Assembly (NCBI RefSeq): GCF_001908375.1
Contig: NZ_CP017241.1
Span: 2,297,001-2,361,000, forward strand
Direction: 5' to 3'
Length of the DNA: 64,000 nt
DNA from: Rhizobium etli 8C-3
GTDB taxonomy: Bacteria; Pseudomonadota; Alphaproteobacteria; Rhizobiales; Rhizobiaceae
This document shows, piece after piece, positions 42,244 through 54,667 of this stretch; position 1 is the stretch's first letter; every line of letters begins with the position of its first letter. Under the pieces are notes generated by a model. The model did not search any database and was not told the origin of the DNA. It saw nothing but the letters and a program-made list of their open reading frames with translations. The translations under genes were made by a program, and so were the position numbers.

Positions 42244-43143
42244 CTAATGCTTCATCATCAATGGAAGCGGCGAATGCGACAGCAGGTAGTGAGTGACACG
42301 ACCGAGCAGCAGTTCCAGGAAGTAGCCATGCTTGAAAGCGCCGATCAAAAGGCACGTCGCATTCGCCGATTTGGCGAAATCGAGGATCGTTTCCCCGACG
42401 GACAGGCCTGCCGAGTTGATTGCGACGACGTCGCCGTCAAGCCCCAGCTGATCAAGCAACTCTCTTGCCGTTGACTGGTAGCTTCCGTCCGGTTCGTCGT
42501 TGACGCACAGAACCGTCACGCGATCGGCCGCAGCCAGCCAGCGTCTTGCCGCGGCGACGGCTCCCCGCGCATGACCATGCGGTTTCCAGCCGATCACCAC
42601 ATGCCCCAGCAGATTGCCGGCATGGGTACCGGCAGGTGGTGCCAACACCAGCTTGCGCTCATGGAAAACGAGATCGTGAAAAGCGTCGCGGGCATCCATA
42701 TTGCCATGACAAGGAGCGACGACCAACGCCGTCTCACGGACTTTGGCACTCACGCAACGAGCAACTTCGCCGCGGCAATCATCGAGAAGGAGCCGTTCTC
42801 GGCCAGGCTTGCACTGCTTCCAATCCTCGAAGGCTCGGGCGACCCGTTCGAACCGCTTATGCGGCGAGCCTTCGGTCAGGTCCCGCAGCATCTGCAGATC
42901 GATCTCCTCGGGCGCGGCGATCATCCGTTCCGGATCGGCGCCGACATGGGCCACGGACATGGTGCCATGGATGGCACGGGCGGCGTCTTCGGCGACGTCA
43001 AGGCAAGGTTGCGCAGTTGCCGGATCGGGCAGCAGGGCGAGAACGTCGGCATGGTCGGTCCCTTCCCGCACAAGATCGGCGAAGATGACACCGGCTTCTG
43101 CCGAAGTCGGGTTCGGCGGGTCGTTCGCGGGCGCATTGTTCAT
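42244..43143 (-). CDS. Universal stress protein family (UspA-like, two-domain)
   Basis: Protein of 299 residues. The C-terminal half is a Usp domain: HVVIGWKPHGHARGAVAAAR, RVTVLCVNDEPDGSYQSTAR, and the nucleotide-loop motif LIGAFKHGYFLELLLGRVTH (G-2x-G-9x-G with Lys-His inside). The N-terminal half (ALLPDPATAQPCLDVAEDAA, AHVGADPERMIAAPEEIDLQ) looks like a degenerate second Usp domain. The start at 43143 follows AAAGGAGG. Such proteins are induced by starvation or low oxygen; no FixK-type site was seen upstream. Confidence 0.88.
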   Translation of the reverse strand: MNNAPANDPPNPTSAEAGVIFADLVREGTDHADVLALLPDPATAQPCLDVAEDAARAIHGTMSVAHVGADPERMIAAPEEIDLQMLRDLTEGSPHKRFERVARAFEDWKQCKPGRERLLLDDCRGEVARCVSAKVRETALVVAPCHGNMDARDAFHDLVFHERKLVLAPPAGTHAGNLLGHVVIGWKPHGHARGAVAAARRWLAAADRVTVLCVNDEPDGSYQSTARELLDQLGLDGDVVAINSAGLSVGETILDFAKSANATCLLIGAFKHGYFLELLLGRVTHYLLSHSPLPLMMKH

Positions 43144-43334
43144 ACCGGGCCTCCTTTCGCGATGCTCCCACATCGCTCCCGGTCCATCACGTTTAAGATT
43201 TTACTCCTGCGTCCGATGGCTGGCTAGCAAACGCCGCACAGGCTGCGCCGCTTCCACGGCAAACGGGCGATTGCGTGGTAGGGTTTATACGCCGGCCAGT
43301 ACCAAGGGCTTCGCCATCATAGCCTGCGACCCAG

Positions 43335-43574: not shown

Positions 43575-44018
43575 ATGTCGTACGGATCGCTGAGTGCTTT
43601 TGGTGACACCTGGTGCCGGTACAGGCCGGACACCGAAACCCTCGAGGCCGCTCATGACCTGGTGGACCGGTACCTTGCGTTCGCCGAGGAAGCGCAAGTG
43701 GGAAATGACATTATCGACGAGATCGAGCTGCCCGTCCCGAAGCCTATGCTGATCAAGTCGTTTGGCCTCGTCATCGCTGCCGAGCACCGTCCGCAGATAA
43801 GAGCTCTGCTGATCAGAGCCGGCATGACGCTGGCCCAGTACCGCGCCGACCTCGGACCACGGATGCGGTTAAAGCCCACGACGCCGCACGGCAGGCTACG
43901 GGCAGCCCGATCGCGGGAATTCGAGCGCCGTCTTCAGAAGAAGCTCGTGGCGGTCGCTGAAGAACGGATCAGCCTTGGCGCGTTTTATCGACGCGCCTTT
44001 ATCGAGGCCATGCATTGA
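43575..44018 (+). CDS. Conserved-looking hypothetical protein, 147 residues
   Basis: Starts MSYGSLSAFGDTWCRYRPDT at 43575 with an AAGGAG site. It is soluble and mainly helical, with a basic C-terminal half (RLRAARSREFERRLQKKLVA, VAEERISLGAFYRRAFIEAM) that could bind nucleic acid or a partner. No family is recognised. It converges with the KTSC-like gene (stop 38 bp away). Codon use is like its neighbours, supporting a real gene. Confidence 0.65.
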   Translation: MSYGSLSAFGDTWCRYRPDTETLEAAHDLVDRYLAFAEEAQVGNDIIDEIELPVPKPMLIKSFGLVIAAEHRPQIRALLIRAGMTLAQYRADLGPRMRLKPTTPHGRLRAARSREFERRLQKKLVAVAEERISLGAFYRRAFIEAMH

Positions 44019-44055
44019 CGCCAGATGAGGTCACACCTTGCCTTGACCGCGACGA

Positions 44056-44244
44056 TCAGATCGCCGCCTGCATCAGGTAGAGGGATCGTTCCGGAGGAAG
44101 CTGCGCAACCATTTTCATCATGATCTTGGGATCGACATGGTGAACGGATCGCACTTGGCCGTCCCGGTAGATGATCGTCAAGACGCGCGTCTCTTCGTCA
44201 TAATCGAGTTGGGCGATCGTTTTCGTGTACACCAGGAACCGCAT
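44056..44244 (-). CDS. Small KTSC-like domain protein
   Basis: Protein of 62 residues: MRFLVYTKTIAQLDYDEETR, then VLTIIYRDGQVRSVHHVDPK. The pattern (a start strand, D-Y-D-x-x-T-R-x-L, then a strand with DGQV) resembles the KTSC domain found in small proteins and beside RNA-modifying enzymes. The ATG at 44244 has GAGGT 10 bp upstream. It starts 19 bp after the stop of a 30-residue membrane peptide, so both may share a transcript. Confidence 0.6.
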   Translation of the reverse strand: MRFLVYTKTIAQLDYDEETRVLTIIYRDGQVRSVHHVDPKIMMKMVAQLPPERSLYLMQAAI

Positions 44245-44263
44245 TGCCGTTAAACCTCACTGG

Positions 44264-44356
44264 TCAATGGAACATCACCAAGGTGATGGTGCCGACCATG
44301 ACCCAACCGGAAACGATAATCAGGGACATTCTCAACAACGCCGTCTTGATCGTCAT
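44264..44356 (-). CDS. 30-residue single-pass membrane peptide
   Basis: Too short for routine gene calling. The reading frame gives MTIKTALLRMSLIIVSGWVM, then VGTITLVMFH: a short basic N-terminus and one continuous membrane helix. The ribosome site TTGGAG lies 6 bp before the ATG at 44356. It precedes the KTSC-like gene by 19 bp on the same strand. The function is unknown. Confidence 0.55.
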   Translation of the reverse strand: MTIKTALLRMSLIIVSGWVMVGTITLVMFH

Positions 44357-44630
44357 GGAATACTCCAAATCGCTTCAACCAAACTAGCTGTACTTTGGGA
44401 CGAGTGTGGGCCGATCGGACCGAGCCTCATCCCGGTTGGATTGTATGTCTGACGCCTTTGGGCAAGTATGGGAGCCGAAGGCGGACTGGAATCACCTCCA
44501 GCGCGACTAAACACACACCAATATAGGCGGTCGCGTGAAATCGACGTGACACACGTGTTGCGAGAACATCTATATCGCGCCTCACAATCTCTGCACACAG
44601 TGGCGGGATCGGGTCGGACCCCGATACCGG

Positions 44631-45317
44631 TCAGAAGTCGCGAAGTGCGTAGCCGGCGCCGCGCACCGTCCGGATCACCTTGTCGGCCTTGCCGAGACTG
44701 ATGCCCTTCCGAAGGCGTCCGATGTGTACGTCGACAGCGCGTTCATCGACACTGGCATCGCTGCCCCACAGCGATGCCCTCAATTCCGATCGGGAGTGGA
44801 CGCGACCGGGGGACTTCATCAGAAACTCGAGTAGCCTGAACTCGGTGGGTCCGAGCTTGACTTCCTTTTTCTGCCTGTGGACCCGGCGGGCGTTCTTATC
44901 GAGCGTCAGATCCCCGACTTTCAGCGTGCTCTCCAGTAACGCTGGATTGAGACGTCGCAGAAGGTTCCGCAATCGGATGAGGAGTTCGACGGGGGAAACT
45001 GCCTTTATGAGGCAGTCGTCGGCTCCGGCCGAAAGGACTGCCAACCGGTCCTGTTCGAGGGGCGAGTCCAGAAGCACCACGATCGGAAGGCGGGCGGTCG
45101 CTCCGGTTGTCCTGAACTGGCGGCATGTCGAGATCGCCATCGAGCCAGGAGCCGGCGCACCGAATATCACCGCATCAGGCAGCCGCAACGCCACAAGCTC
45201 GACGAGCGATGCATGGGGGGGAAGACAGTTCACCGAATATCCTTCTGTCTCCAGAGCGTTCTTCAGCGTGGTGAGCAGATCTTCGTCCTGCTCGACAACA
45301 AGTATCCGCACCGACAT
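44631..45317 (-). CDS. PhoB-like response regulator with degenerate receiver domain
   Basis: Protein of 228 residues, aligning end to end with the PhoB encoded 17 bp upstream. The C-terminal winged-helix DNA-binding domain is well conserved (KLGPTEFRLLEFLMKSPGRV, then DVHIGRLRKGISLGKADKVI). The receiver has lost key residues: the phosphoacceptor Asp53 of PhoB is Gly53 (AVIFGAPAPGS), Asp10 is Gln10, and the switch Thr83 is Leu. Lys105 remains. It should not be phosphorylated normally and may act constitutively, or as a competitor or partner of PhoB at PHO boxes. Confidence 0.88.
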   Translation of the reverse strand: MSVRILVVEQDEDLLTTLKNALETEGYSVNCLPPHASLVELVALRLPDAVIFGAPAPGSMAISTCRQFRTTGATARLPIVVLLDSPLEQDRLAVLSAGADDCLIKAVSPVELLIRLRNLLRRLNPALLESTLKVGDLTLDKNARRVHRQKKEVKLGPTEFRLLEFLMKSPGRVHSRSELRASLWGSDASVDERAVDVHIGRLRKGISLGKADKVIRTVRGAGYALRDF

Positions 45318-45334
45318 CCTCTCCGGCCTCCCTG

Positions 45335-46018
45335 CTACGCTTCCATCGAATATCCCGCGCCGCGGACCGTGCGGATGACGTCCTGCATGTTGGAGAAATT
45401 CAGTGCCTTGCGAAGGCGACCGACATGAACGTCGACGGTGCGCTCGTCGACATAAATGTCGTGGCCCCAGACACCATCCAGAAGCTGCGAACGCGAGAAG
45501 ACGCGTCCGGGCGATGACATCAGGAACTCCAGGAGGCGGAATTCGGTCGGACCAAGGCGGACTTCGCGGCTCTTGCGGTGGACGCGATGCGTTTCGCGGT
45601 CGAGTTCGATATCCCCGCATTTCAGCACCGTGGAGAGCACCTCAGGCTTGGCGCGGCGCAGCATCGCCTTTACGCGGGCAACCAGCTCTGGCGTGGAGAA
45701 CGGCTTGACGACATAGTCGTCGGCCCCGGTGGAAAGGCCGCGCACGCGCTCGCTTTCCTCGCCGCGCGCCGTCAGCATGATGATCGGCAGACGCTCCGTT
45801 TCTGGGCGCATGCGCAGGCGGCGGCAAAGCTCGATACCAGAGACGCCGGGCAGCATCCAGTCGAGGATCAGGATATCCGGCGTGCGCTCCTGAAGCCTGA
45901 TTTCGGCCTCGTCGCCGCGCAGGATGGTGTCCACCTCGAAACCTTCGGCCTCGAGGTTATAGCGAAGAAGCACGCTCAGTGCTTCTTCGTCTTCAACGAC
46001 TGCAACTCTCGGGATCAT
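45335..46018 (-). CDS. phoB: Phosphate regulon response regulator PhoB
   Basis: Regulator of 227 residues. The receiver is complete: Glu9/Asp10 in VVEDEEA, phosphoacceptor Asp53 in LILDWMLPGVSG, Thr83 in IMLTARGEE, Lys105 in DDYVVKPFSTPE. The OmpR-type DNA-binding domain follows (VRLGPTEFRLLEFLMSSPGR, then DVHVGRLRKALNFSNMQDVI). It is phosphorylated by PhoR, which is not in this window, and activates PHO-box promoters under phosphate limitation. It sits 34 bp after phoU at the end of the pst operon. Confidence 0.97.
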   Translation of the reverse strand: MIPRVAVVEDEEALSVLLRYNLEAEGFEVDTILRGDEAEIRLQERTPDILILDWMLPGVSGIELCRRLRMRPETERLPIIMLTARGEESERVRGLSTGADDYVVKPFSTPELVARVKAMLRRAKPEVLSTVLKCGDIELDRETHRVHRKSREVRLGPTEFRLLEFLMSSPGRVFSRSQLLDGVWGHDIYVDERTVDVHVGRLRKALNFSNMQDVIRTVRGAGYSMEA

Positions 46019-46052
46019 GCGGTTCTGTCTCCTGAAGGCGGGTTCGCAACAG

Positions 46053-46766
46053 TCATTGCGTGACCGCGCCGACGGTGTTGGCAGTGTCGTCCTTCGGACG
46101 CTCGCCTTCCGGCTGTGCGCCGGTCGCCATGTAATAGATCGTTTCGGCAATGTTGGTTGCGTGATCGCCGATGCGCTCGATGTTCTTGGCGCAGAAGAGA
46201 AGATGCGTGCAACTGGTGATGTTGCGCGGATCTTCCATCATGTAGGTCAGCAGCTCGCGGAACAGCGAGGTGTACATGGCGTCGATTTCCTCGTCTCGCT
46301 CGCGGATCGACTTCGCCTTGTCGGCTGAACGCGAGGCATAGACGTCGAGTACTTCCTTGAGCTGTACCAGCGCCAGTTCGGAAAGATGCTCGAGACCGCG
46401 GGCGAGCTTGCGCGGAACGCCGGTGCTCTGCACGGCAATGACACGCTTGGCAGTGTTCTTGCCGAGATCGCCGACGCGTTCGAGATCGGCCGCGATGCGG
46501 ATCGAGCCCATGATCTCGCGAAGGTCGGAGGCCACCGGCTGGCGGCGGGCAATCGTGACGATCGCCTTGTCGCCAATCTCGCGCTCGGCGTGATCCATGA
46601 TAACATCGTCGGAGATGACCTTCTGGGCCAAGCCAGCGTCACCGTTGACAAGCGCGCGGACGGCGTCCGACACCATCTGCTCGGCAAGCCCGCCCATTTC
46701 CGAGATGCGGCGGGACAAATACTTCAGATCCTCGTCATAGGCAGAAAAAATATGGGTCGATGCCAT
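46053..46766 (-). CDS. phoU: Phosphate uptake regulator PhoU
   Basis: Helical protein of 237 residues with two PhoU repeats: YLSRRISEMGGLAEQMVSDA, then ADLERVGDLGKNTAKRVIAV, and in the second half LLFCAKNIERIGDHATNIAE. The E(R)xGD motifs that bind metal are present in both repeats. It links the state of the PstSCAB transporter to PhoR and limits uptake. It lies 34 bp after pstB and 34 bp before phoB. Confidence 0.97.
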   Translation of the reverse strand: MASTHIFSAYDEDLKYLSRRISEMGGLAEQMVSDAVRALVNGDAGLAQKVISDDVIMDHAEREIGDKAIVTIARRQPVASDLREIMGSIRIAADLERVGDLGKNTAKRVIAVQSTGVPRKLARGLEHLSELALVQLKEVLDVYASRSADKAKSIRERDEEIDAMYTSLFRELLTYMMEDPRNITSCTHLLFCAKNIERIGDHATNIAETIYYMATGAQPEGERPKDDTANTVGAVTQ

Positions 46767-46800: not shown

Positions 46801-47616
46801 TCAGCCGAAGCGGCCCATGATGTAGTCCTGGGTGCGCGGGTCGTCCGGATTGGTGAACATCTTGTCGGTGTCGTTCTCCTCGACGAGATTGCCGAGGTGG
46901 AACATGGCGGTGCGCTGCGAAACGCGGGCCGCCTGCTGCATCGAATGCGTCACGATGACAATGCTGTAGTTCTCGCGAAGCTCGTGGATCAGTTCCTCGA
47001 CCTTGGCGGTCGCAATAGGATCAAGCGCCGAGCATGGTTCGTCCATCAGGATGACTTCCGGGCTGACGGCGACGGCTCGTGCGATGCACAAGCGCTGCTG
47101 CTGGCCTCCCGACAGACCGGTGCCGGATTCCTGCAGGCGGTCTTTGACTTCGTTCCAGAGACCGGCCTTGTGGAGGCTGCTTTCGACGATCTGATCCAGG
47201 TCAGCCTTCGACCTGGCAATACCGTGGATGCGCGGTCCGTAAGAAACGTTCTCGTAGATAGACTTCGGGAACGGGTTCGGTTTCTGGAAGACCATGCCGA
47301 CGCGAGCGCGCAGTTCCACAACGTCAATGTCCGGATCGTAGATATCCGCGTCGTCCAGCTTGATTTCGCCCGTGACGCGGCAATTGTCGATCGTGTCGTT
47401 CATGCGGTTCAAGCAGCGCAGGAAGGTGGACTTGCCGCAGCCCGACGGGCCGATGAGTGCGGTAACGGTATTTTCGCGGACGTTCAGGTTCACGTCGAAT
47501 AGCGCACGCTTCTCGCCGTAGTAAACCGACACCGTCTTGCCGACCATCTTGTAGGCGGTCGCGTTCATTTTCTGCTCCAGAGCCTTCTCAACTGCTGTTT
47601 CGGTCAACATGTTCAT
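46801..47616 (-). CDS. pstB: Phosphate ABC transporter ATPase PstB
   Basis: ATPase of 271 residues powering the Pst phosphate importer. Walker [10 protein letters not shown], signature [20 protein letters not shown], Walker [14 protein letters not shown], and the PstB-specific [20 protein letters not shown] and [20 protein letters not shown]. The start [13 protein letters not shown] at 47616 has an AAGGAT site; the first 20 residues extend beyond E. coli PstB, as in other rhizobia. It lies 13 bp after pstA. Confidence 0.97.
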
Positions 47617-47629
47617 AATCCTTACTCCG

Positions 47630-48916
47630 TTACCAGCGGCGCTCAAAGCGCTGCCTGAGGAAGATGGCGATCGCGTTCATCAATATGAGGAACCCCAAAA
47701 GCACGAGAATTGCGGCGGAGGTTCTCGATACGAAGCCGCGTTCCGGGCTGTCCGCCCAGATGTAGATCTGGCTCGGAAGCGCCGTCGACGCCGCGAATAT
47801 CCCGTCCGGAGGGCTCGTGATGAAGGCGTTCATGCCGATGAGCAGCAGCGGCGCGGTTTCTCCAAGAGCTCGCGCGAGCGAGATGATCGCTCCCGTCATG
47901 ACGGTCGGCATGGCGAGCGACAGCACGTGGTGGAAGATCATCTCGTGTTTGGAGGCGCCGACCCCCAGGGCCGCCTCTCGGATCGAGGAAGGCACCGCCT
48001 TCAGCGACACGCGTGTAACAATAATGAGCGTCGGCAGCGTCATCAGCGAGAGGACGAGGCCGCCGACGAGCGGAGACGACCGCGGCAGGCCGAAACCGTT
48101 CAAGAACACGGCGAGCCCGAGGAGACCGAACACCACCGACGGGACCGCCGCAAGATTGTTGATGTTGATTTCGATGAGATCGGTGAAACGGTTCTTGGGA
48201 GCGAACTCTTCCAGGTAGATCGCCGCCGCAATGCCGATCGGGAAGCTGATGGCGAAGCAGACGAGCAGCGACCAGAACGATCCGGAAATCGCGCCAGCCA
48301 AGCCAGCCAGTTCCGGGAAGCGGCTGTCGGCATTGAGGAAAAGCGCCCAATTGAACGGACTGGAGATTACGCCCTTGGATACGAGCTGGTCGATCATGCC
48401 GATCTGCTCGTCGCTGATGCGCCGCTGGCTCTCTGGCGTATCCCGGCTGATCTCGCCTTTGACGAACTGGTCGGCCGGATCGGACATCGGGATGACGAAG
48501 CTGCTCGGTGCCTTGAGGCGTGCTGGATCCTTAATGACTGCATCGCGAACGAGGAACGGTGCCGAGGATGTGAAGAGGTCGAAGAAGGCCTTCTCCTGCC
48601 TGCGTGGCAGGTCCCCAATCTGGTTGCGCAGTGCCTCGCGCACGGCGCCGCGCCAGTCGGCCTTCATCATATCACTTGTATCGAGCTCAGCTTTGCTGAG
48701 GTCGATGTTTATGGTGGCCACCGTCTGGGTGAACGCCTTGTACCCGGTGAGCGTCAGAGAACCGATGAGGAAAGCGAGGAAGCCGAGCGCGAAAATGATT
48801 GCGATCATGCCATAAGCCTGGAGACGCCGCTCAGCGGCATAGCGTGCCTTCCGGCGTGCCTTCATGTCATCCGAATGCCAGTTGACACGCGTTCCGGCGA
48901 CTGCGGTCGTGGACAT
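47630..48916 (-). CDS. pstA: Phosphate ABC transporter permease PstA
   Basis: Inner-membrane permease of 428 residues, longer than E. coli PstA because of a periplasmic insertion of roughly 120 residues after the first membrane helix ([20 protein letters not shown], then [20 protein letters not shown]), a known trait of alphaproteobacterial PstA. The permease core follows: [60 protein letters not shown]. Its ATG shares one base with the pstC stop. Confidence 0.95.
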
Positions 48917-50295
48917 CAATATTTCTCCCGGTACTTGCGCACGGTGCGCAGCGCGATGAGGTTCAGGCCGAGTGTGACGAGGAAGAGTACAAGGCCGAGT
49001 GCAAAAGCCGCCAGCGTCTTCGGGTTGTCGAACTCGGAGTCGCCGATGAGAAGGGTGACGATCTGGACGGTCACGGTGGTGACCGCATCGAAGGGGTTGA
49101 GTGTGATCTTCGCGATTAGGCCGGCTGCCATGACGACGATCATCGTTTCGCCGACCGCACGGCTAAGGGCCAGAAGGACGCCGCCGATAATGCCAGGCAA
49201 AGCGGCCGGCAGCAGGACCTTGCGGATAGTCTCGCCCTTGGTTGCTCCCAGGGCCAGCGAGCCGTCGCGCATGGCACGCGGCACCGCCGCAAAGGCGTCG
49301 TCCGAAAGCGAGGAAATGAACGGAATAATCATCACGCCCATGACAAGGCCGGTGGCAAGCGCGCTGTTCGGCGACGAGGCTATCCCCACGGAAGCGCCCA
49401 GGGCCCTAATAGCAGGGGCGACCGTCAGCACGGCGAAGAAGCCGTAGACGACCGTCGGAACTCCCGCGAGAATTTCAAGAAGCGGCTTCACAACGGCACG
49501 GAACCGCGGATGCGCATACTCGGTAAGATAGATGGCGGAGAGTATCCCCGTCGGAACCGCAACCAGCATGGCGATCGCCGAGATGACGAACGTGCCGAAC
49601 AGGACCGGAAGAACGCCGAACGCGCCTTGCCCGGCCACCTGGTCTGCGCGGATGGCGATCTGAGGCTCCCAACGCAGGCCGAAGAGAAATTCGGTGACCG
49701 GAACCCTTGCAAAGAAGTGGAGCGCTTCGAATACGAGCGAGCCGACGATGCCCACTGTGATGATGATGGCAACCAGGGAGGAGAACATCATGAAACCCGT
49801 GACCGCAGTCTCGACACTGTGGCGGGCGCGATACCTTGGGCTGATCACCTTCATCCCGAGAAATGCACCCACCGCGACGATGCAGAAGCCAATCGCCATC
49901 ATCAGGTAGGTGGAGTAGGTCTGGAGCGACCGAAGATGTTCGGCTGCAGCAGCCACTTCAGGCGTTGGCTGGCGGAACAGGTTTCCGGCCGCAACCTGGC
50001 GGATTTCGCCGATGAGCAGCGATAGTGCAGCACTGTCCATGCCTTCGGAGCCAGGATATGAGGCGAGCACAAGCTGGTTCACGACGCTGGACTGGAAGGC
50101 AAGCCAGAGAAGAAGGAAGATGGAAGCGGGAACAGCGGTCCAGATCGCGGCGTTGAGACCGTGGTAAATCGGCCGGGAATGCGCCTTGATGCGGCTCGTT
50201 CCTGCCGTTGTCGATACGGCGAGGGCGCGCAAGCCTCCGAAGTAGGCCGCGACCACGGCTGCGGCAACCAATACGAGGAAGAGATAACCGAACAT
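48916..50295 (-). CDS. pstC: Phosphate ABC transporter permease PstC
   Basis: Inner-membrane permease of 459 residues. After a long N-terminal membrane portion (MFGYLFLVLVAAAVVAAYFG) the core has TEYAHPRFRAVVKPLLEILA, GVPTVVYGFFAVLTVAPAIR and RDGSLALGATKGETIRKVLL (EAA-like loop). The start MFGYLFLV at 50295 was chosen for its GGGGGC site and membrane N-terminus; sequence further upstream is the pstS-pstC hairpin. Joins PstA in the channel. Confidence 0.95.
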   Translation of the reverse strand: MFGYLFLVLVAAAVVAAYFGGLRALAVSTTAGTSRIKAHSRPIYHGLNAAIWTAVPASIFLLLWLAFQSSVVNQLVLASYPGSEGMDSAALSLLIGEIRQVAAGNLFRQPTPEVAAAAEHLRSLQTYSTYLMMAIGFCIVAVGAFLGMKVISPRYRARHSVETAVTGFMMFSSLVAIIITVGIVGSLVFEALHFFARVPVTEFLFGLRWEPQIAIRADQVAGQGAFGVLPVLFGTFVISAIAMLVAVPTGILSAIYLTEYAHPRFRAVVKPLLEILAGVPTVVYGFFAVLTVAPAIRALGASVGIASSPNSALATGLVMGVMIIPFISSLSDDAFAAVPRAMRDGSLALGATKGETIRKVLLPAALPGIIGGVLLALSRAVGETMIVVMAAGLIAKITLNPFDAVTTVTVQIVTLLIGDSEFDNPKTLAAFALGLVLFLVTLGLNLIALRTVRKYREKY

Positions 50296-50316
50296 GTTGC
50301 CCCCATATAAGAAGAA

Positions 50317-50341
50317 GCCGCCCGCGGGCTGCGCAGGCGGC
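50317..50341 (-). promoter_or_regulatory. Intercistronic hairpin between pstS and pstC
   Basis: In the transcript GCCGCC pairs with GGCGGC around a GC-rich loop, just after the pstS stop, and is followed by TTCTTCTT. It is a plausible attenuator or 3' stabiliser that lets the binding protein be made in excess over the membrane components. A comparable hairpin lies after phnD. Confidence 0.55.
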
Positions 50342-50356
50342 CGGTGAAGTTCGATA

Positions 50357-51394
50357 TTACGAGCCGAGCTTCTTGGCTGCCATGACAGCCTTCTCGACTT
50401 CCGCACGCTTGGATTCGTCGAGAGGCGTCAGACCGCGTTCAGCAAGGTAGCCGTCCTCGCCCATCGAAGATTTGGAAGTATATTCTTCCAGGAACTCCTT
50501 CATGCCAGGGATGACGTCGCGATGCGCATTCTTGACATAGATGAAGAGCGGTCGGGATACCGGATAAGAGCCGTCCTTGATGGTCTCGAAGCTTGCCTCG
50601 ACGCCTTCGATCTTGATATCCTTGAGCTTGTCTTCGTTCTCATAGAGGAACGAATAGCCGAAGATGCCGACCGAGTTCGGATCGGATTCAAGACGCTGAA
50701 CGATGAGATTGTCGTTTTCGCCGGCTTCGATGAACGGGCCGTCCTGACGCATGCGCGAGCAGGCTTCCGTGTATTTTTTCTCGTCGGCTTTCTTGAGGTC
50801 AGCCATGCCTGGGGTCTTCTCGCAGCCCGGATGCATAACCAGTTCGACGAATGCGTCACGGGTACCGGAGGTCGGCGGCGGTCCGAAGGCGACGATATCG
50901 ACGTCCGGGAGGGACTTGTCGATGTCCGACCACTTCTTGTTCGGGTTGGCAGTCAGGCCGCCCTTACCATCGGGAAGCTGCGCGGCGAGCGCCTGGAAGA
51001 TCTGCCCCTTGGTCAGGTTCCAGTCGCCGGTATTGGACCTGGATACGGCGACAGACAGGCCGTCATAACCAATGAGAGCTTCGGTGATGTCGGTCACGCC
51101 GTTGCCGGCGCAGAGCTTGACTTCCGATTCCTTGATTGCGCGGGAAGCGCCCGTGATATCTGCGAAGTCTTCGCCGACGCCACCGCAGAAGGCCTTGAAG
51201 CCGCCGCCCGTGCCGGTGGACTCGACGACCGGAGCGGGCTTGCCAGTCTTGTTGGCAAACTCTTCAGCAACTGCTTGAGTGTAGGGAAACACGGTGGAGG
51301 AGCCGACGATCTTGATCTGATCGCGAGCCGATGCGACGCCTGCGGTTGCCAGCAAAATAGCGGCGACTGCGCAGCTTCCGAGATATTTGTTCAT
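50357..51394 (-). CDS. pstS: Periplasmic phosphate-binding protein PstS
   Basis: Secreted protein of 345 residues. The signal peptide is MNKYLGSCAVAAILLATAGV, cleaved after ASA. Phosphate-site motifs: IKIVGSSTVFPYTQAVAEEF, VVESTGTGGGFKAFCGGVGE (binding loop), ITGASRAIKESEVKLC and GPPPTSGTRDAFVELVMHPG. First gene of pstSCAB-phoU-phoB. The ATG at 51394 follows GGGAGAG, and a PHO box lies 64 bp upstream. Confidence 0.97.
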   Translation of the reverse strand: MNKYLGSCAVAAILLATAGVASARDQIKIVGSSTVFPYTQAVAEEFANKTGKPAPVVESTGTGGGFKAFCGGVGEDFADITGASRAIKESEVKLCAGNGVTDITEALIGYDGLSVAVSRSNTGDWNLTKGQIFQALAAQLPDGKGGLTANPNKKWSDIDKSLPDVDIVAFGPPPTSGTRDAFVELVMHPGCEKTPGMADLKKADEKKYTEACSRMRQDGPFIEAGENDNLIVQRLESDPNSVGIFGYSFLYENEDKLKDIKIEGVEASFETIKDGSYPVSRPLFIYVKNAHRDVIPGMKEFLEEYTSKSSMGEDGYLAERGLTPLDESKRAEVEKAVMAAKKLGS

Positions 51395-51457
51395 GGATAC
51401 TCTCCCGTAGAATGTAACGATGACGCTTCGGCGTCGGCTCCCCTCTATAGGCACCAC

Positions 51458-51475
51458 GTAACAGTTTTGTGACAG
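51458..51475 (-). promoter_or_regulatory. PHO box upstream of pstS
   Basis: Minus strand reads CTGTCAC-AAAA-CTGTTAC, two 7-bp direct repeats with 4-bp spacing, close to the rhizobial PHO box CTGTCAT-N4-CTGTCAT. It ends 64 bp before the pstS ATG, fitting PhoB activation of the pst operon. Confidence 0.85.
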
Positions 51476-51718: not shown

Positions 51719-51736
51719 GTGACATAAAACCGACAT
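51719..51736 (+). promoter_or_regulatory. Candidate PHO box upstream of phnC
   Basis: Plus strand reads GTGACAT-AAAA-CCGACAT, with the same 7-4-7 layout as the pstS box and a conserved ACAT core in each half. It ends 58 bp before the phnC ATG. The match is weaker than that of the pstS box, but orientation and distance are right. Between the two boxes the roughly 240 bp shows no gene. Confidence 0.6.
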
Positions 51737-51793
51737 TCCACCGTTACGAACGCGGCATATGTCCCCTCAGACGCAATGACGAGGGACGCGCCA

Positions 51794-52639
51794 ATGCTGG
51801 AAATAACGGATTTGACCCGGCGGTTCGGTGGCAAAACCGCGGTCGACCAGACGAACCTGAGAATACCGCAGGGCCAAATGGTGGGCATCATCGGCCGCTC
51901 GGGCGCCGGCAAATCCACACTTCTGCGCATGATCAACCGCCTGCAGGAGCCGACTTCCGGTTCCATCCAATTCTGCGGCGTCGAGGTCTCTGCTCTGCGT
52001 GGCCAAGCCCTGCGCAACTGGCAGCGCGATTGTGCGATGATCTTCCAGCAGTTCAATCTCGTCCCTCGCCTCGACGTTTTGACCAATGTCATGCTCGGCC
52101 GCCTCAATCACCGCCCGACCATGCTGAGCATCCTCAGCATCTTCAGCCGCGACGAGCGTATTCATGCGATTGCGGCTCTGGAGCGCCTCGGCATCGAACA
52201 GACGGCGCTACAAACGGCCGGTACGCTCTCCGGCGGCCAGCAGCAGCGCGTGGCCATCGCGCGTGCCCTGATGCAGAACCCGAAGATGGTCCTCGCCGAC
52301 GAGCCGATCGCCTCGCTCGACCCGCTGAATGCCAAGATCGTCATGGATGCGCTGCGCGACATCAACGAGCGCGAGGGCATCACCGTCATCACCAACCTGC
52401 ATACGCTCGATACGGCGCGCAATTACTGTGAACGCATCGTCGGCATGGCCGCCGGCCGCATCGTTTTCGACGGTAAGCCTTCCGAGCTGACAGCGGCTGC
52501 GGTCAAGGAAATCTACGGCACCGACAGCGATGGCGCCGGCATCGACGAAACAATGACCTCCACCTCGATCAACATGCCCGGGCCAGCCACCGCTCAAGCA
52601 TCCGCCGCCCGGCAACCCGTCGCCCTGGCGGGTCTGTGA
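51794..52639 (+). CDS. phnC: Phosphonate/phosphate ABC transporter ATPase PhnC (PhoC)
   Basis: ATPase of 281 residues. Walker [10 protein letters not shown], signature [20 protein letters not shown], Walker [40 protein letters not shown] is typical of PhnC. The start MLEITDL at 51794 follows GAGGGA; an in-frame ATG at 51776 would add six residues. First gene of phnC-phnD-phnE1-phnE2, matching Sinorhizobium phoCDET, which imports phosphate as well as phosphonates under PhoB control. Confidence 0.94.
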
Positions 52640-52727: not shown

Positions 52728-53633
52728 ATGGTAAAGAAAGCACTCTTCGCCGCGACAGCGCTTCTAGCGCTTGCCGGCGCTGCCGCAGCCGAAAATCTCA
52801 AGGAATTCCGGGTTGGCATTCTGGGAGGCGAAAACGAAGCTGACCGGCTGCGCAATTTCCAATGCCTGTCTGAAAAGCTTCCTGCAGCAATCGGCGTCGA
52901 GAAGGACTCCTTCTTCCCGGCAGCTGACTACGACGGCGTTGTCCAGGGCCTGCTCGGCGGCACGCTAGACTACGCAGAACTGGGCGCATCGGCCTATGCC
53001 AAGGTCTATCTCGCCAATCCCAAGGCCGTCGAGCCGATCCTGACGACCGTGCAGACCGACGGCGCAACCGGCTACTACTCGGTCATGGTCGCCCGCAAGG
53101 ACAGCGGCATCAAGAAGCTCGAAGAAATGAAGGGCAAGAAGCTCGGCTTTGCCGATCCTGACTCGACTTCCGGCTACCTCGTTCCCCTCGTCACACTGCC
53201 TGAAGCCACTGGCGCTCCGGTCAAGGAATACTTCTCCTCCACCGGTTTTGGCGGCGGCCACGAAAATCTCGTCTTGGAAGTCGTAAAAGGCAACTTCGAT
53301 GCGGGCACGACCTGGGCCTCGGGCGTGGGCGAGTTCAAGGATGGCTACAGCTCCGGTAACCTTCGCAAGATGGTCGACAAGGGCATCTTGAACATGGACG
53401 ACCTCGTCGAGCTCTGGAAGTCGCCGCTCATCCCGAATGGCCCAGTCGTCGTGCGTTCCTCGCTGAACGAAGACATGAAGGCCAAATTCAAGGCGTTCAT
53501 GATGGACCTGCCGAAGTCGGATCCGGCCTGCTTCTCGGCAATTCAGGGGGGCGATTTCAAGGGCTTTACCGAAGTCAACGTCGATTTCTACAAGCCGATC
53601 GTCGACGTCCGCAAGGCAGCCATTGGCGGCTGA
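52728..53633 (+). CDS. phnD: Phosphonate/phosphate-binding protein PhnD (PhoD)
   Basis: Periplasmic binding protein of 301 residues. The signal peptide is MVKKALFAATALLALAGAAA, cleaved before ENLKEF. Family motifs: FRVGILGGENEADRLRNFQC, PAADYDGVVQGLLGGTLDYA, ADPDSTSGYLVPLVTL and SSTGFGGGHENLVLEVVKGN (serine-rich oxyanion site). The ATG follows AGGAGAG. It is separated from phnE by a strong hairpin. Whether phosphate or phosphonate is preferred is not readable. Confidence 0.95.
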   Translation: MVKKALFAATALLALAGAAAAENLKEFRVGILGGENEADRLRNFQCLSEKLPAAIGVEKDSFFPAADYDGVVQGLLGGTLDYAELGASAYAKVYLANPKAVEPILTTVQTDGATGYYSVMVARKDSGIKKLEEMKGKKLGFADPDSTSGYLVPLVTLPEATGAPVKEYFSSTGFGGGHENLVLEVVKGNFDAGTTWASGVGEFKDGYSSGNLRKMVDKGILNMDDLVELWKSPLIPNGPVVVRSSLNEDMKAKFKAFMMDLPKSDPACFSAIQGGDFKGFTEVNVDFYKPIVDVRKAAIGG

Positions 53634-53647
53634 TGCCGTTTCCTCCC

Positions 53648-53679
53648 GCAAAGCCGCCGGTTCCCTCCGGCGGCTTTGC
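53648..53679 (+). promoter_or_regulatory. Strong intercistronic hairpin between phnD and phnE
   Basis: A perfect 13-bp stem, GCAAAGCCGCCGG pairing with CCGGCGGCTTTGC, closes a 6-nt loop (TTCCCT) 14 bp after the phnD stop and 25 bp before the phnE ATG. There is no T-tract, so it is more likely a transcript stabiliser or partial attenuator than a full terminator. Confidence 0.8.
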
Positions 53680-53704
53680 CATATCCCACGTTCGAAGGTT
53701 GACT

Positions 53705-54667
53705 ATGAGCGACACCGCGCTGCGCCACTTCCCGAGTGAATCCGCAAACATGATCGAGCGGCACTGGCACGAACTTGCCTCCCGGCGCCGCGGCCAGACA
53801 TTCCTTGCCTTGTTTCTCGTCGTCGTCTTCACAGCGGGTTCGGTGTGGTTCGCCAATGAGACCAACGCGGGCAAGTTTTGGGACCGCCTACCCTATCTGG
53901 CAGACTTCGTGGGGGACCTCGTGCCGCGTGACGCGTGGGAGCCGGCGCGCGCCCTGCTCGATCTCCCTTCCCCCTATTACGACGGCAGCCAGAAGTACGA
54001 CTATCCCGAGGGCCGGTTCTACGTCACGCAGACCCTCTACGTTCCGGAATATGTCGAAAAGATCGTCGAGACGGTGAACATCGCCATCTTCTCCACGGGC
54101 GTCGGCTTCTGCCTGGGATTTGCACTGTGCTTCTTCGCTGCCAAAAACATGATGCCGAATGCCTATGTCCGTGGAGCGGTGCGCCGTTTCATGGAGATCC
54201 TGCGGGCGTTTCCCGAGGTCGTCATCGCGGGCTTTTGCCTGGCGATCCTCTCGCTCGGGCCGGTCCCGGCGATCATCGCACTATCCGTCCACACCACCGG
54301 AGCGCTCGGAAAGATGTTCTTCGAGGTGGTGGAGAACGCCGACATGCGCCCTGATGAAGGCCTGCGGGCCGTCGGCGCGACCTGGCTTGAACGGGTCTGG
54401 TTTGGAATGGTGCCGCAGGTCATGCCCAACTTCGTGAGCTATTTCCTCCTGAGGCTCGAGATCAACGTGCGGGCGTCCACCATCATCGGAGCGGTCGGCG
54501 GCGGCGGTATCGGCGAACTTCTCAGGCTTTCGATCGGACAGGGTCATCCGGCCAAGACTCTTGCGATCGTATTCCTCCTCTTCTGCACCATCATTGCCGT
54601 CGACCAGTTCTCCGCATGGCTGCGTAGAAAGCTGGTCGGCGAGCAGTCGTTCCGCACCGTCGCATGA
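53705..54667 (+). CDS. phnE: Phosphonate/phosphate ABC permease PhnE1 (PhoE)
   Basis: Inner-membrane permease of 320 residues. Hydrophobic segments include RRGQTFLALFLVVVFTAGSV, and the core has VNIAIFSTGVGFCLGFALCF, MEILRAFPEVVIAGFCLAIL and STIIGAVGGGGIGELLRLSI, characteristic of PhnE. A periplasmic stretch of about 80 residues separates the first helix from the core. Start at 53705 with a GAAGG site. Pairs with PhnE2, 10 bp downstream. Confidence 0.94.
   Translation: MSDTALRHFPSESANMIERHWHELASRRRGQTFLALFLVVVFTAGSVWFANETNAGKFWDRLPYLADFVGDLVPRDAWEPARALLDLPSPYYDGSQKYDYPEGRFYVTQTLYVPEYVEKIVETVNIAIFSTGVGFCLGFALCFFAAKNMMPNAYVRGAVRRFMEILRAFPEVVIAGFCLAILSLGPVPAIIALSVHTTGALGKMFFEVVENADMRPDEGLRAVGATWLERVWFGMVPQVMPNFVSYFLLRLEINVRASTIIGAVGGGGIGELLRLSIGQGHPAKTLAIVFLLFCTIIAVDQFSAWLRRKLVGEQSFRTVA

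Follow-up and report, generated by a model that had tools for sequence, protein, structure and literature searches.

What does a PhoB paralogue whose receiver has lost the phosphoacceptor do when it is encoded directly behind phoB itself? The question is raised by a gene, here called phoB2, in a 64,000-nucleotide stretch of Rhizobium etli 8C-3 DNA (the window). A sequence-only reading had placed the gene at 44631..45317 on the minus strand, 17 bp behind phoB in the same operon, and had suggested that its product could bind PHO boxes without phosphorylation or form mixed dimers. An ORF check found the frame, strand and coordinates (228 aa) correct, and the 17-bp gap (45318..45334) was confirmed; this spacer carries a Shine-Dalgarno-like stretch, CAGGGAGG/GGAGAGG (AGGGAGG/GGAGAGG), and relatives have similar spacing. 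The gene order on the minus strand is pstS (50357..51457, the sole PstS match in the genome), pstC (48916..50406), pstA (47630..48919), pstB (46801..47646), phoU (46053..46766, with 81-99% matches beside the phoB-phoB2 pairs of relatives), phoB (45335..46018) and then phoB2. On the plus strand, phnC (51776..52639), phnD (52728..53633) and phnE (53633..54667) diverge from pstS. The spacing and direction of phoB and phoB2 fit an apparent operon, as claimed, and a promoter and terminator scan of 44000-46100, in which both kinds of signal were at the level of shuffled sequence, found nothing between the two genes. The pair is probably co-transcribed, and the operon is presumably under PhoB control. 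Behind phoB2 lie two short minus-strand ORFs, one of 30 residues with a hydrophobic stretch (44264-44356) and one of 62 residues (44056-44244), and further on a 309-aa protein with a universal-stress-protein domain (42244-43173, minus strand), which has a match at 80% in locus L002 and none in L001.

The observation that 44631-45317 encodes a PhoB paralogue holds. PhoB2 aligned with the neighbouring PhoB end to end, without gaps, over 225 residues, of which 107 (48%) are identical. In local PhoB numbering, used throughout, the pairwise alignment bore out the replacements of D10 by Gln, D53 by Gly and T83 by Leu and the retention of K105; four further changes had gone unmentioned, namely A84 to Asp, Y102 to Cys, P106 to Ala and F107 to Val. 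The neighbouring PhoB is canonical at the key positions (D10, D53, T83, Y102, K105). PhoB2 has the OmpR/PhoB architecture of a receiver followed by a winged-helix Trans_reg_C domain, with Pfam scores of 39.9 bits for Response_reg (PF00072, cut-off 30.2) and 87.5 bits for Trans_reg_C (PF00486, cut-off 26.2). It falls below the cut-off of the PhoB equivalog TIGR02154 (213.2 against 296.2 bits), which the neighbouring PhoB passes at 341.9 bits. With G53, Q10 and L83 it lacks the combination of Asp53 with D10, T83 and K105 that marks a PhoB, and it is a pseudo-receiver, a class for which the loss of at least one of the DD, D, T/S and K residues suffices and of which PhoB2 has lost three. The base-contacting V197, R201 and R219 are kept, and T194 is Ala. 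A genome search with PhoB2 as query returned PhoB2 itself (483 bits) and PhoB (205 bits) as the top places, the next being at 111 bits; apart from PhoB, the genome holds no further strong PhoB-type match.

Judged from homology searches, PhoB2 is a patchily distributed family of the Rhizobiaceae. Orthologues at 77-96% were found in another five genomes of the genus, so that 6/148 genomes carry PhoB2 when the window's own is included; 15 of the 148 matched the query, nine of them through an ordinary PhoB at 48%. The family sample gave PhoB2 in 5/394 genomes and 4/109 genera, and the order sample in 2/397 genomes, both counts being lower bounds, since divergent members may have escaped the strict threshold (E 1e-98). 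A spread beyond the Rhizobiaceae was considered and rejected, as both positives of the order sample belong to the window's family, one of them being the window's own genome. A protein search produced 7832 matches among 8000 scored candidates, and among the best 120 of these, which were listed, P0003-P0058 share 52-96% identity with the query and PhoBs appear from about 52% downward. Named PhoB2 carriers among the matches listed belong to Rhizobium, Sinorhizobium, Ensifer, Neorhizobium, Pararhizobium, Mycoplana and Agrobacterium, together with the arsenite oxidiser NT-25. For residue comparisons, 70 distinct PhoB2 proteins were set against 39 distinct PhoBs; every fourth row of P0060-P0122 was sampled and 15 of these were used as PhoB, while P0059 (a fragment) and P0060/P0061 (C102, D53 and Val at 10; place unsettled) were left out of both sets. 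A tree built from 110 distinct sequences put all 70 PhoB2 proteins into one clade with no PhoB inside, a monophyly that is weakly supported (UFBoot 67, SH-like 0.605).

The survey of phoB neighbourhoods proposed in the sequence-only reading recovered the same pair throughout, with PhoB2 directly behind phoB in 20/20 loci (19 different places) and PhoB partners 90-100% identical to the window PhoB. The distance from the last aligned codon of PhoB was 14-22 nt in 18 of the 20 loci, the outliers being L009 (55 nt, or 19 with the full ORF) and L097 (112 nt). Since PhoB2 lies directly behind phoB in every measured locus, it is the pair, rather than the gene alone, that appears to be inherited. In Sinorhizobium americanum (G537), a further PhoB (C45:137072-137749) lacks an adjacent PhoB2 match at E 1e-85; the phoB-phoB2 pair of this genome is on another contig and thus seems to belong to an accessory pho locus there. 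The Rhizobium mongolense group combines near-identical phoU-phoB-phoB2 segments with upstream pst genes in two very different versions, as compared with 47630-51457 of the window: pstS is 94-98% identical to that of the window in L123, L133 and L134, and pstS, pstC and pstA are at 46-52% in L124 (USDA 1844). It is as if the transporter part had been swapped.

The dead receiver stood up for the window member but is no one-off, because the family displays graded loss. The acceptor position 53, Asp in all 39 PhoBs, is Asn in 24, Gly in 18, Ser in 14, Asp in 9, Glu in 3 and Ala in 2 of the 70 PhoB2 proteins. T83 is found in 11/70 and K105 in 54/70, where each of the 39 PhoBs has both. At least one catalytic residue is missing in 65/70 PhoB2 proteins, and D53 in 61/70, against none of the 39 PhoBs, PhoB2 partners included. 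All five catalytic residues are kept in only 5/70 (three Ensifer adhaerens, Sinorhizobium sp. KGO-5 and one more), and basal Ensifer members may therefore still be phosphorylated. The switch position 102, Tyr in 39/39 PhoBs, is Cys in 68/70 PhoB2 proteins (Tyr and Ala in one each) and Cys in no PhoB. C65 is present in 69/70 PhoB2 proteins and also in 39/39 PhoBs. The residues that we take to form the dimer face are mostly kept: L95, D100, E111, R115 and R122 occur in 70/70, D101 in 64 (Glu in 6) and R91 in 57. A conserved salt-bridge network of this face is described in PMC2586830. Hydrophobic dimer positions have changed family-wide, A114 being Ile or Val in 63/70, A118 Asn in 69 and T97 Ala in 67, and position 107 (K+2) is Phe in 50/70 and Ala, Ile, Leu or Val in 18/70, with Val in the window protein. 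On this comparison, Ile or Val at 114 would make the dimer core more hydrophobic in 63/70.

The DNA-binding domain shows the same degree of conservation as that of PhoB (mean entropy 0.63 against 0.62 bits), whereas the receiver is far more variable (1.53 against 0.55 bits). Among the DNA-reading positions, R193 is kept in 69/70, V197 in 61, H198 in 68, and R201, R203, R219 and Y223 in 70/70; N200 is found in 13/70, and T194 is Ala in 61/70 and Val in 6. For E. coli PhoB, PMC3973317 reports that R201, T194, V197 and R219 contact bases (T194 through van der Waals contacts to thymines), that W184R, G185R, V190M and D192G abolish activation, and that the acidic residues at 177 and 191 point towards sigma. 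In PhoB2, W184 and G185 are invariant (70/70), V190 is kept in 64 (Ile in 6), position 192 is Glu or Asp in 70 and D191 is kept in 66; position 177 is non-acidic in most PhoBs of this comparison too. In the transactivation loop, substitutions at positions 180, 181, 188 and 189 affect 69, 70, 70 and 70 of the 70 proteins, with L180 becoming Arg or Lys in 69/70, and D181 and Y189 found in none. Q178 is Glu in 68, and position 182 is Ser in 68/70, compared with Gly in 30, Asn in 5 and Ser in 4 of the PhoBs. The earlier claim of a retained DNA-binding domain is hence correct for most contacts and for positions 184, 185, 190 and 192, but not for T194 or for the loop at 180/181 and 188/189.

Such divergence could signify nothing more than a duplicate decaying without function, and the fast evolution of the receiver (1.53 against 0.55 bits) and the patchy presence (6/148 and 5/394 genomes) would suit that account. 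It is hardly credible, however, and a decaying pseudogene was rejected, the idea being close to refuted, on the ratios of nonsynonymous to synonymous change. In six pairs from the R. mongolense group, dN/dS came to 0.064-0.118 over the whole gene, with 0.071-0.200 in the receiver and 0-0.057 in the DNA-binding domain, far below 1 for both domains, and PhoB had no amino-acid changes in the same six pairs. Over 15 pairs, the whole-gene value was undefined in two through synonymous saturation, and the other defined whole-gene values were at most 0.28; the receiver value was higher in two pairs, 0.48 for L004-L101, which have few synonymous changes, and 0.54 for the very distant pair of the window and L095. 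The 20 translated PhoB2 loci contained no stop codons, interface residues are invariant, and the new Cys102 and Asn118 are nearly fixed. The values of 0.06-0.12 among close relatives therefore indicate a functional gene. Parsimony places D53 at the base of the PhoB2 clade, with about three changes of state across the tree; the simplest history is therefore one in which the switch decayed once the gene had been duplicated, within the limits of a weak tree and possible reversals.

The DNA on which PhoB2 might act is less clearly marked than had been proposed. The two PHO boxes of the sequence-only reading were sought with an E. coli-type consensus, CTGTCAT-N4-CTGTCAT. The first was found as a tandem repeat, CTGTCACAAAACTGTTAC, at 51458..51475 on the minus strand, immediately upstream of pstS and with three mismatches; a looser pattern matches it without mismatches, but was drawn after the site had been seen and hence provides no independent test. 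The second, GTGACAT-AAAA-CCGACAT at 51719..51736 on the plus strand upstream of phnC, was missed by both the consensus scan and the looser-pattern scan, and is a weak candidate picked by eye with four mismatches. PHO-box-like sites were not above chance across the window (5 found against 3.62 expected).

A second feature of the family is its physical association with arsenic genes. A plasmid search gave six records that carry a member of the clade, from Sinorhizobium americanum (2), Ensifer adhaerens (2), NT-25 and NT-26, and in each of the five plasmid loci examined (L098-L102) arsenite-oxidase genes lay within the 12-kb flanks, called by annotation in four and by tblastn in L101. In genomes, arsenic genes were found within about 4 kb downstream of 5/15 PhoB2 loci and 0/20 phoB loci without PhoB2 (Fisher p = 0.009), or 5/12 against 0/20 (p = 0.004) when the four R. 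mongolense-group loci were collapsed to one; the window's locus is outside the 15, and with it the count is 5/16. The queries were arsK, arsR, arsC, aioX and aioA (tblastn, E up to 1e-8), and the controls were the 20 best-scoring phoB loci without PhoB2, covered up to 13 kb downstream and about 1 kb upstream, with shorter stretches for controls L103 and L105 and for several PhoB2 loci. Matches of GNAT type (L119) and SulP (L122) in controls were not counted as arsenic genes, and L135 was counted mainly for arsC (77% and 59%), its aioX and arsR matches being at 51% and 35%. Altogether, 7/14 independent lineages adjoin arsenic genes, comprising 5/12 genome lineages and the E. adhaerens and NT-25/NT-26 plasmids.

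The association does not extend to all members, as 10/15 genome loci have no arsenic genes nearby, nor to whole genomes. A genome-wide tie to arsenite oxidase was considered and found not convincing, AioA occurring in 3/17 PhoB2 genomes (3/16 different ones, G538 and G200 being the same genome) against 44/394 in the family sample, at a stricter E-value; only physical linkage differs. An arsenic-island plasmid without PhoB2 also exists, pSinA, which has one PhoB-type place only. The aio and ars queries found no match in the window's 64 kb, so its locus does not qualify as the pst1/pho1 cassette of an arsenic island; an ArsC-like protein is encoded about 0.5 Mb away. The window pstS is nonetheless 82-84% identical to the Ensifer/Sinorhizobium arsenic-island type and 78% to that of NT-25/NT-26. 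The same pstS type occurs in L006 and L007 with no arsenic genes nearby, and the neighbouring pstS of other PhoB2 genomes is at about 42-52%. Given this pstS type and a phnCDE divergence as on the E. adhaerens plasmids, the window locus looks like an island cassette without the arsenic genes, or the reverse. Since arsenate can also enter through phosphate transporters, the arsenic-island link has a practical side.

The reading we favour, and judge to be an even call, is that phoB2 encodes a phosphorylation-uncoupled partner of PhoB, made together with it and acting on PHO-box-like DNA as a homodimer or with PhoB. PhoB2 would be produced from the phosphate-starvation operon, fold as a receiver plus winged helix, dimerise over its alpha4-beta5-alpha5 face independently of Asp phosphorylation, as a homodimer and possibly with PhoB~P, and occupy PHO-box or PHO-box-like half-sites. 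Its activity would be set by the amount made, itself under PhoB~P control, so that PhoB2 could reshape the size, persistence or target choice of the Pho response, probably adjusting PhoB's genes without the usual signal. The pattern of dead chemistry, kept dimer salt bridges and activation-critical residues, mostly kept DNA contacts, rebuilt core and loop, strong selection and fixed tandem fits a phosphorylation-free dimer on PhoB sites or close variants. PHO-box binding or mixed dimers, as first suggested, are accordingly partly supported: PhoB2 combines a degenerate receiver and tight co-directional spacing with purifying selection and retained dimer salt-bridge and most DNA-reading residues, which makes both ideas reasonable from a sequence standpoint. 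A review (PMC12632262) lists a bulkier or more hydrophobic dimer core and the K+2 residue among proposed routes to constitutive activity; K+2 residues of the kind that Val represents shift CheY towards active conformations. The Val107 of the window protein and the bulkier residue at 114 would fit these two routes, but Phe at K+2 in 50/70 means that the K+2 route is not family-wide. Interface conservation does not by itself demonstrate dimerisation or partner choice, and as E. coli OmpR/PhoB regulators mostly homodimerise despite a common interface (PMC2586830), PhoB-PhoB2 heterodimers are not automatic; the choice between homo- and heterodimers could be tuned by the substitutions at 114 and 118. 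That PhoB2 dimerises, binds DNA or affects transcription is a prediction, and its residues appear compatible with both boosting and damping.

A constitutive self-activator would tend to lock its own operon on, for which reason PhoB2 may be a weak activator, recognise altered sites (T194A in 61/70) or damp. As a damper it would compete for PHO boxes or form less active heterodimers with PhoB~P, limiting the Pho response and arsenate uptake via Pst. Such a role would suit a protein encoded with PhoB in one apparent operon, with dimer salt bridges and DNA contacts kept and a transactivation loop replaced family-wide, and it avoids the self-locking loop. We consider it unlikely all the same, since the activation-critical W184, G185, V190 and D192 are kept as Trp, Gly, Val/Ile and Glu/Asp, the acidic residue at 191 persists in 66/70, and the Glu at 178 adds to the acidic loop. 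The rebuilt loop is itself conserved in the family, which fits contact better than decay. Were PhoB2 instead to have left the PHO box, T194A and the new loop would read a different site and control genes unrelated to PhoB targets. The replacement of T194 by Ala or Val in 67/70 and the low retention of N200 point that way, but the other base contacts are kept (R201 and R219 in 70/70, V197 in 61/70) and the tandem position argues for a common pathway, and we regard a separate regulon as quite improbable.

The near-fixed cysteine at the switch position suggests yet another input, in which Cys102, alone or with Cys65, senses As(III) or oxidants in place of phosphorylation and ties phosphate uptake to arsenic or redox stress. 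C102 is specific to PhoB2, C65 is not, being universal in PhoB as well; arsenic genes adjoin 5/15 PhoB2 loci and no control, and are found beside the plasmid loci; and cysteine-gated pseudo-receivers exist in RitR and Hp1021, according to PMC12632262. Against this, arsenic genes are lacking near the window locus and 10/15 genome loci, arsenite oxidase is not clearly enriched genome-wide, pSinA shows that arsenic islands can do without PhoB2, and Cys could simply fill the space of the Tyr once the Y-T coupling had gone. The thiol switch is therefore doubtful. Its boldest form, in which PhoB2 exchanged phosphorylation for a Cys102 thiol input and arsenite or oxidants directly tune the PhoB regulon, an arsenic override of phosphate uptake, is a long shot; if true, the override has persisted within arsenic islands and also in certain chromosomal pho operons that adjoin no arsenic genes.

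PhoB2 is not the only damaged PhoB-like protein in the Rhizobiaceae, and by residue comparison at least three more accessory pst or phn loci hold proteins with such receivers. On pSinA of Sinorhizobium sp. M14, a protein that follows phoU in the arsenic island (L139:3432-4094, minus strand) has Q9, E10 and R105 and nothing aligned at T83, with D53 still Asp; it is 33-38% identical to PhoB2 and PhoB. The NT-26 plasmid encodes one with S9, N10, E53 and R105 that adjoins phnC (L100:17414-18055, plus strand) and is 57% identical to the pSinA protein over 125 residues; these two may represent a second pseudo-receiver family of arsenic islands. A third, on pC5.7d of Rhizobium rhizogenes (L138:5001-5678, plus strand), has N53 and A83 and adjoins phnC. 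In Agrobacterium tumefaciens 5A, the gene after phoU1, AT5A_25615, is reported in PMC7965956 to be 5.7-7.9-fold up with arsenite and, by gene order, should correspond to the damaged-receiver protein of pSinA. The same strain has two PhoBs, named PhoB1 and PhoB2, of which one is associated with an arsenic island and with the oxidation of arsenite (PMC3834237, PMC7965956, PMC7533571), but these are the PhoBs of two separate pst/pho loci and the clash of names is accidental. Its PhoB1 was considered as a clade member and rejected, the syntenic PhoB1-type protein of pSinA retaining D53, T83, Y102 and K105.

To our knowledge, BldM and WhiI of Streptomyces are not PhoB paralogues, and ChxR of Chlamydia and HP1043 of Helicobacter stand alone, with no adjacent typical paralogue. 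Each nevertheless resembles PhoB2 in one respect. An atypical regulator acts as a heterodimer with a second regulator in BldM/WhiI (PMC12632262), a pair described in PMC12548384 as not co-transcribed, and ChxR and HP1043 are OmpR/PhoB pseudo-receivers reported to dimerise and bind DNA without phosphorylation (PMC3960148, PMC12632262). RitR of Streptococcus is likewise an aspartate-less OmpR/PhoB protein with a regulatory cysteine (PMC4395418, PMC12632262), although that cysteine lies in the linker rather than at K-3, and RitR responds to redox conditions. The review (PMC12632262) describes the switching of pseudo-receivers between on and off as a mystery. The parent that PhoB2 accompanies can still be phosphorylated, its regulon is among the best understood in bacteria, and a candidate DNA site is available. 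The PhoB2 family in turn grades from an intact active site (5/70) to Glu, Asn, Ser, Ala or Gly at the acceptor, so the contribution of a dead receiver to a live one is directly testable here. We found no description of this PhoB2 paralogue in the open-access literature, but the kind is known already, from the BldM/WhiI heterodimer and from the co-encoded CmrR/CmrT of Clostridioides difficile. Like phoB and phoB2, the CmrRST system has two OmpR-family regulators in one operon, one typical and one with a pseudo-receiver, and phoB-phoB2 are of this kind, lying side by side in an apparent operon. According to PMC12548384, CmrT homodimerises without its kinase, a precedent for the PhoB2 homodimer proposed here, and was seen in heterodimers with CmrR in pull-downs. 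CmrT departs from a typical receiver only minimally (DGD, D to E) and keeps T, K and the Tyr at K-3, unlike the window PhoB2, which has none of D10, D53, T83 and Y102. The partner of PhoB2, moreover, is PhoB, which distinguishes the pair from CmrR/CmrT, and common target sites would thus be PHO boxes.
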